A DNA stretch of 30,256 nt from a virus: IMG/VR virus record IMGVR_UViG_3300035181_000463, positions 1 through 30,256 of that record; one strand, written 5' to 3'. The notes beneath the pieces were generated by a model. That model saw nothing but the letters and a program-made list of their open reading frames with translations. It was not told where the DNA came from and made no database searches. A program made the translations under genes and the position numbers. Positions 3,542-29,292 of the stretch are shown here, piece by piece (positions within the stretch are counted from its first letter, which is position 1; each line of letters starts with the position of its first letter).

Positions 3542-4423
3542 TTATGAAAGTTTCTTTTTAACAAAGTCAAACAAGTCGTCTTGCTCATGGTGAGTGTAGA
3601 CTTTTGTGCTAGAAATCGATTTGTGACCGAGAAGTATCTGAAGCAGTTCATCACTGCACCCATTTGATGAATACATTCTAGCGCACGAATGGCGCAACCC
3701 ATGGCTTGATGAGATCGGCAGATTCATTTCTTGTTGTAATCTTTTCAGAAACTCGTCGTAACTTTTGTGACTCATCATGCCGCCATCGGGGTTAGGGTTC
3801 ACAAACTTTGATTCACTCTTAGCCATCTTCTTTTGAAGAAAAGTCTTTAGCCTTGGAGTCATTGGAACCCGATACTTAGTTTTGTTTTTGGTATGGGGTT
3901 GAATTTGCTTTAAATGGCGATTGTAGGCCTTGGTTACATTTATACAGTCTTTCTTCCAATCTATCTGATCCCATGTCAGGGCTTGAACCTCGCTAACTCT
4001 GATGCCTGTTAGAAGCTGTATCCAAACCGCAGTACCGAATATTTTATCAAACATGCATCTTTGGAGTACTAGCTCGCTTTGTTCTGGTTCCATATAAGCG
4101 CGGTCAACATCCCCCACTTTCGGTCTGTGGTGAGCTTTTCGTACTGGTGACCTTTCAATATAGTCATGGAACTCTTTAGCGTCTTTAAAGATTTTGGAAA
4201 GCACGTTGTAGATTTTGCGTTGCTGATTTTCTGAATGCCCTTTGTCTTTTGAGGCTTGGATGACTTTTGAAATATCTGAAGGGGTAATTTTAGACAGGCA
4301 TAGCTTGCCGAGTATTGGCATGATGTGATCACGGATAATCTGAAGCTGACATAAATGCCAACCCTTAGATACGCCTAGTGTGGCGCTTTCAGACCATTCA
4401 GGAATGTACTCGCTAAACAACAT
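3542..4423 (-). CDS. int: Tyrosine recombinase integrase
   Basis: A 293-residue phage integrase. Residues 1-90 are a SAM-like core-binding domain (MLFSEYIPEWSES onward). The catalytic domain shows R142 in TGIRVSEVQAL, a lysine-rich strand around 180-184, H241 and R244 in HGLRHSCA, H267 in LGHKSI and the nucleophile Y276 in TKVYTHHE. It lacks a long arm-binding N-terminal domain, so it is at the short end of the family. It should recombine attP with the host tRNA-Leu gene and excise the prophage with a directionality factor I could not identify. It is transcribed towards the attachment core and away from the plus-strand RHH gene. Confidence 0.95.
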   Translation of the reverse strand: MLFSEYIPEWSESATLGVSKGWHLCQLQIIRDHIMPILGKLCLSKITPSDISKVIQASKDKGHSENQQRKIYNVLSKIFKDAKEFHDYIERSPVRKAHHRPKVGDVDRAYMEPEQSELVLQRCMFDKIFGTAVWIQLLTGIRVSEVQALTWDQIDWKKDCINVTKAYNRHLKQIQPHTKNKTKYRVPMTPRLKTFLQKKMAKSESKFVNPNPDGGMMSHKSYDEFLKRLQQEMNLPISSSHGLRHSCARMYSSNGCSDELLQILLGHKSISSTKVYTHHEQDDLFDFVKKKLS

Positions 4424-4617: not shown

Positions 4618-4821
4618 TTGCAAAGCGTGATAACTGAAACCGTGGAAAACAAAACTACTTTAAAAATCAAAGGTCTAAACAAGATTCCTTGCCCATCTAG
4701 GTTGTCACCAAAGCTGTTTATGGCCCTCAAGGAATACACTGAAGTTAATGGCATAACCAGAAATTCAGTCATCGAGAAAGCCCTCCAAGAATTTCTAAAG
4801 CGTAAGAAAATTAAAATATAG
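4618..4821 (+). CDS. Ribbon-helix-helix (Arc/CopG-type) DNA-binding protein
   Basis: Up to 67 residues. After a variable N-terminus comes the RHH pattern: a strand at IPCPSRLSP, helix A KLFMALKEYTEVNG and helix B TRNSVIEKALQEFLKRKK. RHH dimers bind palindromes through the N-terminal strand, and P22 uses this fold for Arc and Mnt. The start is uncertain: TTG 4618 gives the longest protein, and GTG codons at 4627 and 4642 are alternatives; none has a strong ribosome site. It faces away from the integrase across a region with GTAATAC palindromes, so control of integration or excision is a reasonable guess. It is one of three RHH genes, all on the plus strand. Confidence 0.65.
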   Translation: MQSVITETVENKTTLKIKGLNKIPCPSRLSPKLFMALKEYTEVNGITRNSVIEKALQEFLKRKKIKI

Positions 4822-7065: not shown

Positions 7066-7094
7066 AGAATAGCCTAACTTAATGTAAGTGTCAA
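7066..7094 (-). promoter_or_regulatory. Strong sigma70-type early promoter (leftward)
   Basis: On the minus strand TTGACA (7094-7089) and TATTCT (7071-7066) are separated by 17 bases. The -35 box is perfect and the -10 box matches four of six. It lies just upstream of the early recombination operon starting at 7045. A 22-base palindrome begins six bases upstream of its -35 box. Confidence 0.8.
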
Positions 7095-7100
7095 TGCTTT

Positions 7101-7122
7101 TTTATATAAAATATTATATAAA
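7101..7122. promoter_or_regulatory. 22-bp perfect palindrome between divergent promoters (candidate operator)
   Basis: TTTATATAA-AATA-TTATATAAA is a perfect 9-bp inverted repeat with a 4-base spacer, centred between the leftward early promoter and the rightward RHH promoter. A further imperfect site (TTTATA, 5 bases, TATAAA; 7148-7164) overlaps the rightward -10 and the RHH start codon. Both suit autoregulation and repression by the RHH protein. Confidence 0.55.
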
Positions 7123-7128
7123 TAAAAG

Positions 7129-7155
7129 TTGACGGTTTGATTAAATATTTATAAT
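7129..7155 (+). promoter_or_regulatory. Promoter for RHH/lipoprotein unit
   Basis: TTGACG (7129-7134) and a perfect TATAAT (7150-7155) are separated by 15 bases, shorter than ideal. Transcription would start around 7161-7163, almost on the ATG at 7164, so the first message would have little or no leader. This resembles lambda cI transcribed from PRM. Confidence 0.55.
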
Positions 7156-7163
7156 CTATATAA

Positions 7164-7364
7164 ATGATGGATATGGCAATAGATGCAAAAAAGATAATGG
7201 ACAAGGCGCTTAAAGGCTCCCGTAAGACTTACTCACTTTCTATAGATGAGGAGCTCATGGAAGCATTTAAAAGCACCTGTGAGAATCAAGGCGCAAAGTA
7301 TTCTTCTGTAATTGAGGAGCTCATAAAAGAGTTTCTTGATTCGTCTAAAACTAAGAAAAAGTAA
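7164..7364 (+). CDS. Ribbon-helix-helix regulator, candidate prophage repressor
   Basis: 66 residues: a helical N-terminus, then the RHH core with strand KTYSLSIDEE, helix A LMEAFKSTCENQG and helix B SSVIEELIKEFLDS, and a lysine-rich tail. It lies divergent to the early operon across a palindrome-bearing control region, the position of a repressor in lambdoid phages, and leads a plus-strand unit with a lipoprotein gene that would be expressed in a lysogen. ATG codons at 7164, 7167 and 7173 are all possible starts; none has a ribosome site, fitting a leaderless message. The RHH fold is fairly sure; the repressor role is inference from position. Confidence 0.72.
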   Translation: MMDMAIDAKKIMDKALKGSRKTYSLSIDEELMEAFKSTCENQGAKYSSVIEELIKEFLDSSKTKKK

Positions 7365-7400
7365 ACTAAAGTTATTTAGTAATTAGTCCGAAAGGAATAT

Positions 7401-7730
7401 ATGAAAACGCTTGTAATGATTTTGATAACTTCCAGTCTGTTAAGTGCTTGTGCAACTACTGCACACAAAATGAATAAAGTCAGCCTTGGCATGTCCAAAG
7501 GTGATGCAATTGATGCTCTTGGAGATCCTGTGAGCGTTAGCGCAATAAATGGAGTCGAATATTTAAATTATAGATTTACTGAAACAAGAGATGATGTTGT
7601 TTATCACAGAGAAACTCCATACTTTGTTAGAATTATTAACGGTAAAGTTGAATCTTATGGACGATCCGGAGACTTCGACAGCACCAAAACACCTACAGTA
7701 AAAGTTGAAACGGTAACAACAAGTAAGTAA
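7401..7730 (+). CDS. BamE/SmpA-like outer-membrane lipoprotein (putative lysogenic conversion)
   Basis: 109 residues. The N-terminus is a lipoprotein signal ending in the lipobox LSAC, with C17 the lipidated residue. Alanine and threonine follow it, which favours the outer membrane. Residues 26-60 carry the SmpA/OmlA pattern: VSLGMSKGDAIDALGDPVSV, then NGVEYLNYRF. In the host, BamE is part of the outer-membrane protein assembly machine. A phage copy expressed alongside a putative repressor could change the cell surface or block a second infection, as other phage lipoproteins do. An AAAGGA ribosome site precedes ATG 7401. The fold is well supported, the role inferred. Confidence 0.8.
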   Translation: MKTLVMILITSSLLSACATTAHKMNKVSLGMSKGDAIDALGDPVSVSAINGVEYLNYRFTETRDDVVYHRETPYFVRIINGKVESYGRSGDFDSTKTPTVKVETVTTSK

Positions 7731-7734
7731 TTTT

Positions 7735-7893
7735 ATGAGAACAAGACACCTTAGAAATGGCACCTATCTTGTTTGGTTAATGACCGCATTGCTCATTGCT
7801 TCTATTTTCAATGATCATGCAATTAGCATTTTTTATGCAGTTGGATTGAATATTATGTGGCAAGCTTTTAGTGCAATTTTATCTGAAAAATAG
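7735..7893 (+). CDS. Small two-span membrane protein (52 aa)
   Basis: Starts four bases after the lipoprotein stop. The 52-residue product has a basic N-terminus (MRTRHLRNG) and two hydrophobic stretches, about residues 11-25 (YLVWLMTALLIASIF) and 29-48 (ISIFYAVGLNIMWQAFSAIL), separated by NDHA. This looks like a helical hairpin in the inner membrane. No clear ribosome site, so it may depend on translational coupling. A lipoprotein plus a small membrane protein is a plausible exclusion pair. Confidence 0.6.
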   Translation: MRTRHLRNGTYLVWLMTALLIASIFNDHAISIFYAVGLNIMWQAFSAILSEK

Positions 7894-7906
7894 CCCATCC
7901 ATGGGC
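7885..7906 (-). terminator. Terminator of the late operon
   Basis: On the minus strand GCCCA (7906-7902), loop TGGA, TGGGC (7897-7893) is followed by TATTTTT. It comes directly after the last late-operon gene, which ends at 7926. The plus-strand side has no T-run, so it serves mainly the minus strand, although it also overlaps the end of the small membrane gene. Confidence 0.65.
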
Positions 7907-7925: not shown

Positions 7926-8123
7926 CTAGCTAAGTTTTTCCTTATCAGCTACCGTGATAATAAAGCTCTGCGTTCCAATCTTAAGCGTCACTACATTGTG
8001 ATATTTGTGTGATGTCTTAAACTTGAAACCGTCTGGACTCATTAACTCTAAAAGATAATCACTAATCAGGGTGCTAACATCAGACTCTTTGTAATTGATC
8101 ACGCATTTACGTTTGTTCTTCAT
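7926..8123 (-). CDS. Hypothetical protein, last gene of the late operon
   Basis: 65 residues, basic, with alternating hydrophobic stretches (VVTLKIGTQSFIITVADKEK) that suggest a small beta-rich domain. No family recognised. Its start overlaps the stop of the zinc peptidase gene (8120-8123), and a terminator hairpin follows it. Confidence 0.6.
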   Translation of the reverse strand: MKNKRKCVINYKESDVSTLISDYLLELMSPDGFKFKTSHKYHNVVTLKIGTQSFIITVADKEKLS

Positions 8124-9369: not shown

Positions 9370-9753
9370 CTACGGCATAAAAATACGTTTTCCACTTTTC
9401 GGGCCTGAAATCTGAAAATGAACCCAACCTTTAGTTTTATTTGGATGCTCACACCATAGCCCAATGACTTCTAATAATTTTGTGTTAGCTAGAATGTACT
9501 CGCCTATTTTTCCATCTCGATCTTGAACATCGGCGGCAGCACCAGCCAAGTGCTTTGAATGAACGGCGTTAGTTTTTCCGGCTAAAATTAAATCTTGTTG
9601 TAATTGTTCAGAGCGTAGCCCACTGGTAATTTTTAACTCAAATCCAATTGCGTCTTGAAATTCATTTAGTCTTTGAAATAAAATATCAAGGTTTTTATCT
9701 ATGTTGGGATTAGTTTTGTAATTCTTATGGTTAAGCTCTGAAATTTCTTTCAT
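9370..9753 (-). CDS. Endolysin, peptidase M15 (L-Ala-D-Glu or D-Ala type) family
   Basis: A 127-residue globular M15 peptidase. Motifs: TSGLRSEQLQ (44-52), SKHLAGAAADVQD with zinc ligands H68 and D75, and WVHFQI with H112. This is the set used by phage peptidoglycan-cutting enzymes such as T5 endolysin. It has no signal peptide or cell-wall-binding domain, so release should depend on a holin. It begins directly after the TAG of a 41-residue gene and follows a spanin-like pair. Catalytic residues are complete. Confidence 0.92.
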   Translation of the reverse strand: MKEISELNHKNYKTNPNIDKNLDILFQRLNEFQDAIGFELKITSGLRSEQLQQDLILAGKTNAVHSKHLAGAAADVQDRDGKIGEYILANTKLLEVIGLWCEHPNKTKGWVHFQISGPKSGKRIFMP

Positions 9754-9879
9754 CTAAAATTTACCCCTGTGGTAACACTGGTCTGACTGGTATTTCACAG
9801 CTCCATTAAGGAGTGCCGAGCAATTACCACAAGGGATGGTGATAGGAATTTTACGTCTATGCACCAAATTTAAAATCAT
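9754..9879 (-). CDS. Tiny cysteine-containing protein (41 aa)
   Basis: The ATG at 9879 overlaps the TGA of the lipoprotein-like gene (9876-9879), and its TAG lies next to the endolysin ATG. The product has CGNC (17-20) and CYH (35-37), a possible one-zinc finger, and a basic start (MILNLVHRRK). No known family. The position, fully wedged between two lysis genes, and the overlap support a real gene. Confidence 0.5.
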   Translation of the reverse strand: MILNLVHRRKIPITIPCGNCSALLNGAVKYQSDQCYHRGKF

Positions 9880-10160
9880 GGCTTCACCGCATTTAAGACA
9901 GAATCAATCCATTCCTCGTTACGGTTATAATCAGAAATATTTTTGCACACATAATTCTCCATTGATGTTGGAGTGTTTTTACCTGTGATCGGATCGTAAC
10001 ATTGACCAATACCTTGCGCGTTTGAAATGCAGATAATTGTAGGCGGCCTAGTTGGTATCACTGGAGCTTCACACTCTCTGCGTTGCCCCATACCCAAAGC
10101 ACACGAGCTACTTAGTACGATGATCAGAAAGAAGCTTAGCAAGTAAAATGCGTTCCTCAT
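9876..10160 (-). CDS. Putative lipoprotein, outer-membrane spanin (Rz1-like) candidate
   Basis: 94 residues with a signal peptide (RNAFYLLSFFLIIVLSSSC) ending at a cysteine in an imperfect lipobox. A proline-bearing stretch, EAPVIPTRPPTIICI, follows, recalling the proline-rich Rz1 o-spanins, though this protein is longer and has several extra cysteines. A GGAGG ribosome site lies before ATG 10160. Its first 53 bases overlap the end of the preceding membrane-protein gene in another frame, the usual spanin gene arrangement. It would link to the inner-membrane partner to disrupt the outer membrane at lysis. Moderate confidence because motif and length are atypical. Confidence 0.55.
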   Translation of the reverse strand: MRNAFYLLSFFLIIVLSSSCALGMGQRRECEAPVIPTRPPTIICISNAQGIGQCYDPITGKNTPTSMENYVCKNISDYNRNEEWIDSVLNAVKP

Positions 10161-10311
10161 CTGTAGTGGCCTCCAATATTCTTTTTTCTAAAGTTCTACC
10201 AAAATCAATATTTCTTGCTTCTTTTGCAGCTTTAGCGCCTGCATAGAGTTTATATCCAAGTCCGATCAGTGCCGTTAATGCTGCTGCGATTGTTGCGATT
10301 GATGTAAGCAT
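10108..10311 (-). CDS. Small N-anchored membrane protein, inner-membrane spanin or holin candidate
   Basis: 67 residues: an N-terminal transmembrane helix (MLTSIATIAAALTALIGLGY) then a charged helical tail (KAAKEARNIDFGRTLEKRIL). This topology fits an i-spanin (Rz-like), though it is much shorter than lambda Rz; a holin is the alternative. It overlaps the lipoprotein gene by 53 bases. ATG 10311 has no ribosome site and comes right after a terminator hairpin, so its translation signal is odd. Confidence 0.5.
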   Translation of the reverse strand: MLTSIATIAAALTALIGLGYKLYAGAKAAKEARNIDFGRTLEKRILEATTDEERILLAKLLSDHRTK

Positions 10312-10315
10312 ATTA

Positions 10316-10345
10316 TTTTAAAAAGGGGTGAGTTGCCCCACCCCT
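10316..10345 (-). terminator. Intrinsic terminator inside the lysis cassette
   Basis: On the minus strand AGGGGTG (10345-10339), an 8-base loop and CACCCCT (10330-10324) form a GC-rich 7-bp stem, followed by T5 and AAAATAAT. It lies between the 137-residue gene and the spanin-like pair, so part of late transcription probably ends here, leaving lower levels of the endolysin and distal genes. Confidence 0.8.
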
Positions 10346-10354
10346 AATTATCCC

Positions 10355-10768
10355 CTATTTTTTCAAAGCTTCCATAATTTGATTGTAACCATCATAAGAT
10401 TCTTTGATGAGCTCAACACCTTCAGCAATATCAAGATCTTTGATCTCAGCCGGAACTAGATTGATATTTCCAACCATAGCTTCCATTTTTGATTTAAATT
10501 CTGGATCAGAAATAATTTTAGATACAAGATCAATTCCATCTTGAAGCTGAATACCATCTTTGGCTTTTACAATGATGAATGCACCGATGTCTGTTAAACC
10601 GTCCAACACTTCTTTAGTTTCTTTGATTCCAACTTTTACAACTTCCATTTGTACGTCCTTCTGGCTTAATTTAGCCTGTTTATAATTTAGGTACGTTCTA
10701 CCGAAAAACATTATTCCGGCAATCGCTCCCCAAAAACCTGTTTGATCTTTTGTAAACTCCTCATTCAC
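10355..10768 (-). CDS. Hypothetical protein of the lysis region
   Basis: About 137 residues from GTG 10768, which overlaps the previous stop as GTGA and has GGTGGAG six bases before it; a GTG at 10780 is the longer option. Near the N-terminus is a possible membrane segment (GFWGAIAGIMFFGRTYLNY). The rest is a soluble, acidic alpha/beta-looking domain (VKVGIKETKEVLDGLTDIGA, IDLVSKIISDPEFKSKM). No family recognised. Its position between a holin-like gene and the spanin pair suggests a lysis-timing role, unproven. Confidence 0.6.
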   Translation of the reverse strand: MNEEFTKDQTGFWGAIAGIMFFGRTYLNYKQAKLSQKDVQMEVVKVGIKETKEVLDGLTDIGAFIIVKAKDGIQLQDGIDLVSKIISDPEFKSKMEAMVGNINLVPAEIKDLDIAEGVELIKESYDGYNQIMEALKK

Positions 10769-10947
10769 TGATGACTCCACCCGCTTGATTTAAGCATTAA
10801 CCATAAAAGAGATCCTGCGAGTAGAGTTGAGAACACAGTTGAAACCCATTTTCCAATGCTCTCGAAAGTTTGCTTCTTTTGTTCTTCTAGAAACTCTTTC
10901 ATCGCTAATTTGTATGCTTCCTTTTTTAGATCATCTTCTTTGTTCAT
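10765..10947 (-). CDS. Small single-span membrane protein, holin candidate
   Basis: 60 residues: a charged cytoplasmic N-terminal helix (NKEDDLKKEAYKLAMKEFLE) and one transmembrane segment (WVSTVFSTLLAGSLLWLMLK) near the C-terminus. AAGGA precedes the ATG. Its place between the tail fibre and the endolysin, plus its size, fit a one-span holin or antiholin, but holins share no sequence signature and this is inference. Confidence 0.55.
   Translation of the reverse strand: MNKEDDLKKEAYKLAMKEFLEEQKKQTFESIGKWVSTVFSTLLAGSLLWLMLKSSGWSHQ

Positions 10948-27344: not shown

Positions 27345-27348
<4 letters not shown>
27010..27348 (-). CDS. Hypothetical helical protein
   Basis: 112 residues of mostly helical character (SIRDKLDLIYDSILQTQEDG; IRLCEQQEKLLDYIADLERC) that suggest a coiled coil. 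No family recognised. It is coupled by ATGA to the alanine-repeat gene upstream and belongs to the accessory part of the replication operon. Confidence 0.65.
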
Positions 27349-27904
<556 letters not shown>

Positions 27905-27908
<4 letters not shown>

Positions 27909-28276
27909 TCATCAAATCCCAGTTCTTTTAAAACTTCATACTTATTAGCAACCACACATTCAGTTAAAGCTTTTTTAACATCATCCCTCGACAAAATTCT
28001 TTCGCCGTCTTTTAGCTCAACTAGCTTTGTTGTTTGGCACATTGTTTCATGGTGCGAACAATCTAAATTTGACCAAGTTTCTTTTTTAGATATTTCATCT
28101 CGGTTAATCCACAACTCAATGCGCTTTGGTTCTTCCTTCGGGGGTTCTTCTAGCTCAATGGTTCGGGTTCCTAGAAACTCGTGATGAAATAATTCTTTAT
28201 CATCAAATGGTTTAATTCTCTCATGTAAGAAGTTTGTTTCTTTAGTTTTATAACAATACAATTTTATTTTTTTCAT
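27905..28276 (-). CDS. Hypothetical protein
   Basis: 123 residues, charged, with histidines and cysteines in NLDCSHHETMCQTT and a proline/glutamate-rich link (EEPPKEEPKRIELW). The C-terminal part (ILSRDDVKKALTECVVANKY) looks like a small helical domain. No family recognised. It is joined by ATGA overlaps to the glycosyltransferase upstream and the repeat protein downstream. Confidence 0.65.
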
Positions 28277-29292
28277 AAACCTCCACGAACAAAATCAAAC
28301 CACGATTGAGTAGCCATGATTTCATGGTTCTTGAGTAACTTCTGATTGTGACTAATTAAACATGGGTACTTTTGAGCCACATGTAAGTATCTCACTATTT
28401 TTTCAATTTCATTATCAGAACACTTTGAGAACCTACTCGCCCAGTAAACCTCTTTTGATGCTACGAGTGGAACACCAGCCGTAACAACATCGGCGGCCAC
28501 TACGCAAAAAGTTTCGGTTAACGATACTTGCATTCCAATGTCGATTTTCATTTCTAGCTGACGAATAAATTCTTCTGGTTCATGCCAAGCGTGTTGAATT
28601 AACTGTGTGTGCTTAGTTCGCGCAAATAACTCCAGCATGTTTTTAAGTACTGGTGATCCCATTGTCTCAACACGGCTTGCATTGATATGAAACCGTAGCG
28701 TCTTACCGATTTCTTTAGAGTATTGAATTGCCGCCATTGCTTGAAGCAATTGATTTTTAAGCGGACGAATTGCACCAAAACAACCAATGTCAACATGCGT
28801 GCCGTGCTTATTGTATGGCTTAGGTTCTTTAGGATTAGTGATGTAAACATTTGGTAGATAAATTAATCCATCGTGGCGTAACACCGATTTAAATGCTTTA
28901 TAAGATGGCAATGAATTAGCAATCAATCCAATTCCTTTTTCTCCATACTCATCTAGCCATTCCATTGCAATTCCTTCGAGTGCTAAGAAAGGAATATGTG
29001 AATGTAAATGCACAAACCATTTAACTTTAGGATGAAGCGGCTTTAATTCATTAAACTTTGAAGGCACAACCCATAACGCTTCAATGACTACAATGTTAGC
29101 TTTGAATGCTGTAACTTCTCTATCAATATCGTTATTATCATTCACCTCAACTATTTTGGCGTGAACACCTCTAGCCGCTAACGACTCCACGATAAACCGA
29201 GTAGAATTATACAGTCCACTTGAACGTCTGGTATTAGTGGTAAAGCCGTAACATTCATTCTTCTTACAAATAAATAATATTCTTGTACTCAT
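28273..29292 (-). CDS. GT-B fold glycosyltransferase (family 4-like)
   Basis: 339 residues. The N-terminal Rossmann-like domain has RILFICKKNECYGFTTNTRR and a helix region (STRFIVESLAARGVHAKIVE). The C-terminal nucleotide-sugar domain has DIGCFGAIRPLKNQLLQAMA, LRFHINASR, HAWHEPEEFIRQLE, then MQVSLTETFCVVAADVVTAG, close to the E-x7-E motif of GT4 enzymes but with aspartate in the second position. It should transfer a sugar from a nucleotide-sugar donor. In a phage early operon the target could be phage DNA, a host surface glycan or a protein; no base-hydroxylating enzyme is seen here to supply a DNA target. Confidence 0.82.
   Translation of the reverse strand: MSTRILFICKKNECYGFTTNTRRSSGLYNSTRFIVESLAARGVHAKIVEVNDNNDIDREVTAFKANIVVIEALWVVPSKFNELKPLHPKVKWFVHLHSHIPFLALEGIAMEWLDEYGEKGIGLIANSLPSYKAFKSVLRHDGLIYLPNVYITNPKEPKPYNKHGTHVDIGCFGAIRPLKNQLLQAMAAIQYSKEIGKTLRFHINASRVETMGSPVLKNMLELFARTKHTQLIQHAWHEPEEFIRQLEMKIDIGMQVSLTETFCVVAADVVTAGVPLVASKEVYWASRFSKCSDNEIEKIVRYLHVAQKYPCLISHNQKLLKNHEIMATQSWFDFVRGGL

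Follow-up and report, generated by a model that had tools for sequence, protein, structure and literature searches.

Directly behind the probable repressor gene of a temperate tailed phage lies a gene for a small lipoprotein which, by sequence profile and predicted fold, is of OsmE/BLIP type and resembles BamE at the superfamily level only. The reading put forward here, tentatively, is that the + strand island at 7164–7893 is a repressor-proximal, lysogeny-side transcription unit, in which an Arc-like repressor is followed by cargo (moron) genes, and that the lipoprotein excludes other phages.

The window is the whole stretch of DNA analysed, a virus record of 30,256 bases with a GC content of 38% and nearly all genes on the − strand. 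It encodes an Erf-like annealing protein, exonuclease VIII, a DnaB-type helicase, a T7-like large terminase, a portal and a coat protein. A tyrosine integrase gene at 3542–4423 (PF00589, 94.5 bits) marks the phage as temperate. The same virus recurs in its sample series, since portal and coat are matched at 100% identity by contigs of two other metagenomes, 3300035180 and 3300035182 (L002 and L003). Three further genes drew attention by themselves. A second ribbon–helix–helix (RHH) protein is encoded beside the integrase (4618–4821, + strand); its Arc-like match is weak (E 2e-4) and it is possibly an excisionase or a second regulator. The C-terminal half of a 187-aa ORF at 27345–27908 (− strand) contains an extended low-complexity repeat rich in Ala and Asp (AAADAAADAA), and a 339-aa ORF beyond the terminase genes (28273–29292, − strand) reads as glycosyltransferase-like.

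The + strand island consists of an RHH protein, the lipoprotein and a 52-aa hydrophobic peptide, separated by gaps of 36 and 4 nt. It is divergent from the leftward recombination operon and convergent on − strand genes that end at 7926. A sequence scan found no terminator between the three genes. Between the convergent gene ends lies a terminator-like hairpin (7893–7906) with its T-run on the − strand side; one such hairpin was found against 0.6 expected by chance. The RHH gene (7164–7364, + strand, 66 aa) encodes an Arc/CopG-like DNA-binding protein. Its domain matches phage Arc-like repressors (phrog_3180, ‘Arc-like repressor’, 4.5e-10), with weaker matches to CopG_antitoxin (3.4e-5) and ParG (2e-4), and the gene is a probable repressor gene. 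The original prediction had placed the lipoprotein behind a candidate repressor, and this arrangement is borne out, in a phage that also carries an integrase. Upstream, a promoter-like pair TTGACG–15 nt–TATAAT (7129–7155, + strand), read from the sequence as a consensus match only, ends 8 nt before the RHH start codon, a position from which a leaderless mRNA is likely. The promoter scan accepts spacers of 16–18 nt only and therefore does not list this pair. Its best site in the region, scoring 10/12, is TTGACA–17 nt–TATTCT (7066–7094, − strand), a candidate promoter that may serve the leftward early (recombination) genes. Between the two divergent pairs sits an AT-rich palindrome (7097–7128; arms 7097–7115 and 7110–7128, 84% complementary), a candidate operator for which the AT-richness makes the evidence weak. 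Pairs and palindrome are consistent with a genetic switch but do not prove one, since shuffles of this AT-rich stretch contain promoter matches at least as often.

The lipoprotein gene occupies 7401–7730 (+ strand, 109 aa), and the peptide gene 7735–7893, exactly as originally called. The N-terminus has a signal-peptide-like start and a lipobox LSA-C (Cys17) followed by Ala at +2. In E. coli-type lipoprotein sorting, location follows the +2 residue, and by this rule an outer-membrane location is predicted. A Shine–Dalgarno sequence AAAGGA precedes the ORF, with a duplex energy of −5.6 kcal/mol that falls among about the best 5–10% of random sites, and phage-like codon preference is seen in the ORF's own frame only. 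Ribosome site, codon preference and homologues together indicate a real gene. The SmpA/OmlA-type motif GMSKGDAIDALGDPVSVSA is present as originally described. Lipobox Cys17, GMSKGDAIDALGDP and the fold match to 5d0o_E (below) make this a lipoprotein with the SmpA/OmlA helix–loop–helix motif and an alpha–alpha–beta fold, features common to OsmE and BLIP and not specific to BamE.

Whether the 52-aa ORF is also a gene was judged from several properties. An ATG ORF of that length arises in the 195-nt gap in 0.7% of simulations, and codon usage favours its own frame; its ribosome site is weak (−0.9 kcal/mol). The ORF is probably a gene, and its start, 4 nt past the lipoprotein stop, makes translational coupling possible. 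The product is hydrophobic and probably membrane-embedded. The two membrane spans first ascribed to it are not established: hydropathy is moderate (19-residue maxima of 1.6 and 1.46), and AlphaFold, run on the sequence by itself, models residues 3–51 as one continuous helix. No homologue was found in any search (domain profiles, PHROGs, viral contigs). A search elsewhere for the gene pair had been proposed, and the pair does not appear as a conserved unit, as the peptide is without relatives and the gene following the lipoprotein in a satellite-like element (below) is a different one.

Family assignment of the lipoprotein depends on weak sequence matches and on a predicted fold. The Pfam BamE profile PF04355 scores 18.2 bits (E 0.0022), under the curated gathering score of 23.2. 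Among PHROGs, phrog_3135, whose function is unassigned, matches at E 1.6e-4, and the PHROG of Cor, phrog_1119, gives a weak match over residues 1–74 (E 0.012) that is probably driven by the signal peptide. OsmE gave no match in NCBIfam up to E 1, in a library that may lack an OsmE model, and PADLOC returned no credible match. An AlphaFold model built on a seven-sequence alignment (A3) has a pLDDT of 71 overall and of about 75–93 over residues 21–90, with the topology helix–helix–strand–strand–(helix)–strand–strand. Foldseek places OsmE (4dm5) first (E 2.6e-3, TM 0.50), followed by a BLIP-like protein and BamE, none of them below 0.001. VIA-align also ranks OsmE highest (Z 9.2 over 75 residues; next match Z 7.8). 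Its other matches include BLIP (Z 7.7), BamE (5d0o_E; Z 7.4, 68 residues, rmsd 2.9) and the type VI secretion (T6SS) immunity protein BtiO (Z 7.2), at values where Z below 8 can reflect merely a common arrangement. A search with the A3 profile found BLIP (2e-5) ahead of BamE (0.01); that the sequence profile also finds these two supports a common superfamily despite the Z values. A domain bound to the adhesin AtaA is a further fold match. With it and BtiO among the matches, the OsmE/BLIP/BamE fold is a general protein-binding fold.

Each of the named families differs from the phage protein in some respect. OsmE, its best structural match, is likewise a small lipoprotein with a helix–helix–beta sheet fold, but is only 19% identical. 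OsmE is a chromosomal, osmotically regulated protein, and we know of no molecular role for it. BamE (SmpA/OmlA) is a lipoprotein with the motif GM(S/T)-x-LG-x-P and a comparable fold (Z about 7), whereas the phage protein is sub-threshold to its family profile and the alignment covers little beyond the two-helix motif of the superfamily. BLIP (beta-lactamase inhibitory protein, PF07467) belongs to the same fold superfamily, but is a secreted tandem-domain protein where the phage protein is a single-domain lipoprotein. The description ‘BamE-like’ in the original prediction thus stands as a superfamily-level resemblance and fails as a family assignment. A survey of BAM components by hidden Markov models (HMMs) reports that a relaxed BamE HMM collects OsmE-like lipoproteins, which it does not count as BAM subunits (PMC3359395). 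For epsilonproteobacteria the same survey found nothing to indicate that BamE belongs to the BAM complex, and genuine BamE is reported absent from Campylobacterota (PMC3359395).

The closest relatives are chromosomal. A scan of a bacterial genome collection with a 60-aa query gave three, 61–65% identical over that query: a Sulfurimonas MAG (L087), an Opitutia MAG (L088) and Marinomonas (L089). Over 88–108 residues of the core, the Sulfurimonas, Opitutia and Marinomonas (L092) proteins are 48–59% identical to the phage lipoprotein, the 59% being over 88 residues, and core-domain tblastn matches to this BamE-like plus SHOCT family (L087, L088, L092 and L093) have E values of 1e-33 to 1e-15. These relatives share with the phage protein the stretch YFVR-x3-GKVESYGR-x-GDFDST, and the core residues conserved among them are kept in it. 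They differ in bearing a C-terminal SHOCT domain (PF09851, 35–36 bits), before which the phage protein ends. Their surroundings hold no obvious phage context and no tie to defence. The gene is rare: counting without each centre genome, it was found in 0/48 genomes of the Marinomonas family, 0/390 of the order and 3/368 of the class (the last at E 1e-10), in 0/176 of the Opitutia order and in 1/396 of the Sulfurimonas phylum, where the single copy has an internal stop. Such rarity points to an accessory gene, not a BAM subunit.

The only other close relative found to lack SHOCT lies, like the phage gene, on a phage-like element. This copy (G106:C4:66405–66734; 46% identity over 104 residues) belongs to an element of about 8.1 kb (G106:C4:60306–68412; L101, L102) bounded by a tRNA-Thr gene and a 29-bp direct repeat (60306, 68384). 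The element encodes a tyrosine integrase (80.6 bits), an HTH_17 excisionase-like protein (29.1 bits), an AAA_25 primase-type ATPase (123.5 bits), two lipoproteins, a 243-aa protein and a terminase small subunit (PF03592, 37.7 bits). None of its genes was recognised as coding for capsid or tail, and in layout it looks like a Gram-negative phage satellite. The 243-aa gene follows the lipoprotein gene in the place held in the phage by the 52-aa peptide. Two SHOCT-less elements are too few to argue for selection on phages.

Other searches of mobile DNA gave more distant relatives or none. Tblastn with the window lipoprotein found no match in annotated phages and one weak Vibrio match in plasmids. 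Among 2.9 million viral contigs there was no close relative of the lipoprotein, the 52-aa peptide or the RHH protein, and none of the lipoprotein when the A2 alignment or the L097 homologue served as query. The BamE profile had no convincing match over 46 related virus records, and the A3 profile none in 9,405 ORFs of portal-related virus loci and three related Gammaproteobacteria prophage contigs, all of them fragments that hold mostly the structural half of the genome. Absence from these related contigs, with great rarity in bacteria, is as expected of swapped cargo. BamE-domain lipoproteins, more distant, do occur on plasmids of 4.5–14 kb in Vibrio and Acinetobacter. On three of these plasmids (L084, L085 and L086; 4.5–6.5 kb, two of them MOBQ) the lipoprotein gene is among very few genes, and surface-exclusion or phage-exclusion cargo is one possible role for it there. 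Fifteen Pseudomonas phage records contain BamE-domain proteins, two of them annotated ‘outer membrane protein assembly factor’. Small BamE/OmlA-annotated proteins comparable to the lipoprotein are carried by Pseudomonas phages PP9W2, vB_PaeS-D14Q and YMC11/07/P54 and by Flyfo siphovirus Tbat2_3; in PP9W2 and Tbat2_3 the gene lies near the tape-measure gene, whereas in the window phage it lies behind the repressor. Phage-borne SmpA/OmlA lipoproteins are thus already on record, as annotations, and a partial literature search found no published test of any of them.

The case for exclusion starts from position. Genes for lysogenic conversion or exclusion are classically found at the repressor-proximal site of a temperate phage. 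The lipoprotein gene lies next to the repressor gene, codirectional and 36 nt behind it, which suggests expression in lysogens; the lipoprotein is probably expressed there as cargo. In the proposed mechanism it would be exported, lipidated and, to judge by lipobox and +2 residue, sorted to the inner leaflet of the outer membrane. Its OsmE/BLIP-type domain would hold the periplasmic face of some envelope protein. An outer-membrane protein used by other phages would thereby be altered or blocked, and the lysogen protected, as with T5 Llp and probably Cor. As for the 52-aa peptide, it may be an additional membrane product that works independently. Exclusion of phages by small lipoproteins at the outer membrane has already been described for T5 Llp and Cor (PMC9586334). 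Llp, located on the periplasmic side of this membrane, binds FhuA and jams it, folding the outer loops of FhuA inward, and Cor (phi80, N15, T1) probably acts likewise (PMC9586334). These are, like the candidate, small phage lipoproteins, but there is no convincing homology between them and it, and Llp has about 61 residues with a disulphide. Llp (8A60) is absent among the fold matches listed, which is no proof of difference. The parallel is offered as one of analogy.

Several other roles have to be weighed against exclusion. The lipoprotein could be cargo for general envelope fitness: a stress lipoprotein of OsmE type that makes the outer membrane of the lysogen more stable under osmotic, detergent or antibiotic stress and has no anti-phage role. 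This is possible, and almost as likely as exclusion: OsmE is the best fold match in both structural searches, the closest relatives are chromosomal accessory lipoproteins, and weak BamE-HMM matches are assigned to OsmE-like proteins (PMC3359395). On the other side, both SHOCT-less members are on phage-like elements, and an OsmE match says little on function where OsmE itself has no known molecular role. A simpler view, that the gene is a decaying passenger from a bacterial genome which lost SHOCT and has no selected function in the phage, would suit the patchy distribution and the missing C-terminal domain. It is unlikely, given an intact ORF, lipobox, ribosome site and conserved core residues, and a satellite-like element whose version likewise lacks SHOCT.

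The fold match to BtiO and to BLIP inhibitors, together with the small mobilizable plasmids on which a BamE-domain lipoprotein has few genes beside it, might instead indicate an immunity or entry-exclusion protein that binds a contact-delivered toxin, a bacteriocin or a competing mobile element in the periplasm. That role is distinctly unlikely, as no toxin partner was recognised in the window and a fold match is by itself no sign of immunity. In the mechanism first suggested, a mimic of BamE would join or block the BAM complex and so alter insertion of outer-membrane proteins, including phage receptors; the SmpA/OmlA motif and the similarity to the BamE fold speak for it. This mechanism now appears improbable. 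The family score is below cut-off, the fold resembles OsmE or BLIP at least as much as BamE, the profile prefers BLIP, the sequence match covers little past the two-helix motif, and the relatives are rare, SHOCT-tailed accessory proteins that occur also in Campylobacterota, which are reported to lack genuine BamE (PMC3359395); interference with BAM has no support beyond gene position. Least of all is a lysis function to be expected, in which lipoprotein and adjoining hydrophobic peptide would form a spanin or holin-like pair. The other strand has, at 9370–10947, a VanY-type endolysin accompanied by lipoprotein and membrane ORFs of its own, a folded OsmE/BLIP domain is unlike spanins, and strand and position of the island fit lysogeny-side expression. 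Within that lysis region, between the endolysin and small membrane ORFs, a 94-aa Cys-rich lipoprotein-like ORF (LSSSC; 9876–10160, − strand) without a family match is a candidate outer spanin.

Exclusion by the lipoprotein thus remains the tentative preferred reading. A wider version of it is rather doubtful as it stands: that temperate phages and phage satellites more than once acquired a rare bacterial lipoprotein of BLIP/OsmE fold, which shed its SHOCT tail and serves them as a repressor-coupled exclusion lipoprotein, with a target and fold unlike those of Llp and Cor. Should the lipoprotein serve some other end, the case is a caution against taking a sub-threshold BamE match on a mobile element for a BAM subunit. 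If it does exclude phages, the few lipoprotein exclusion factors would be joined by one with the OsmE/BLIP fold, and the proteins of phages, satellites and small plasmids that are annotated ‘SmpA/OmlA’ or ‘BamE’ would gain a function.
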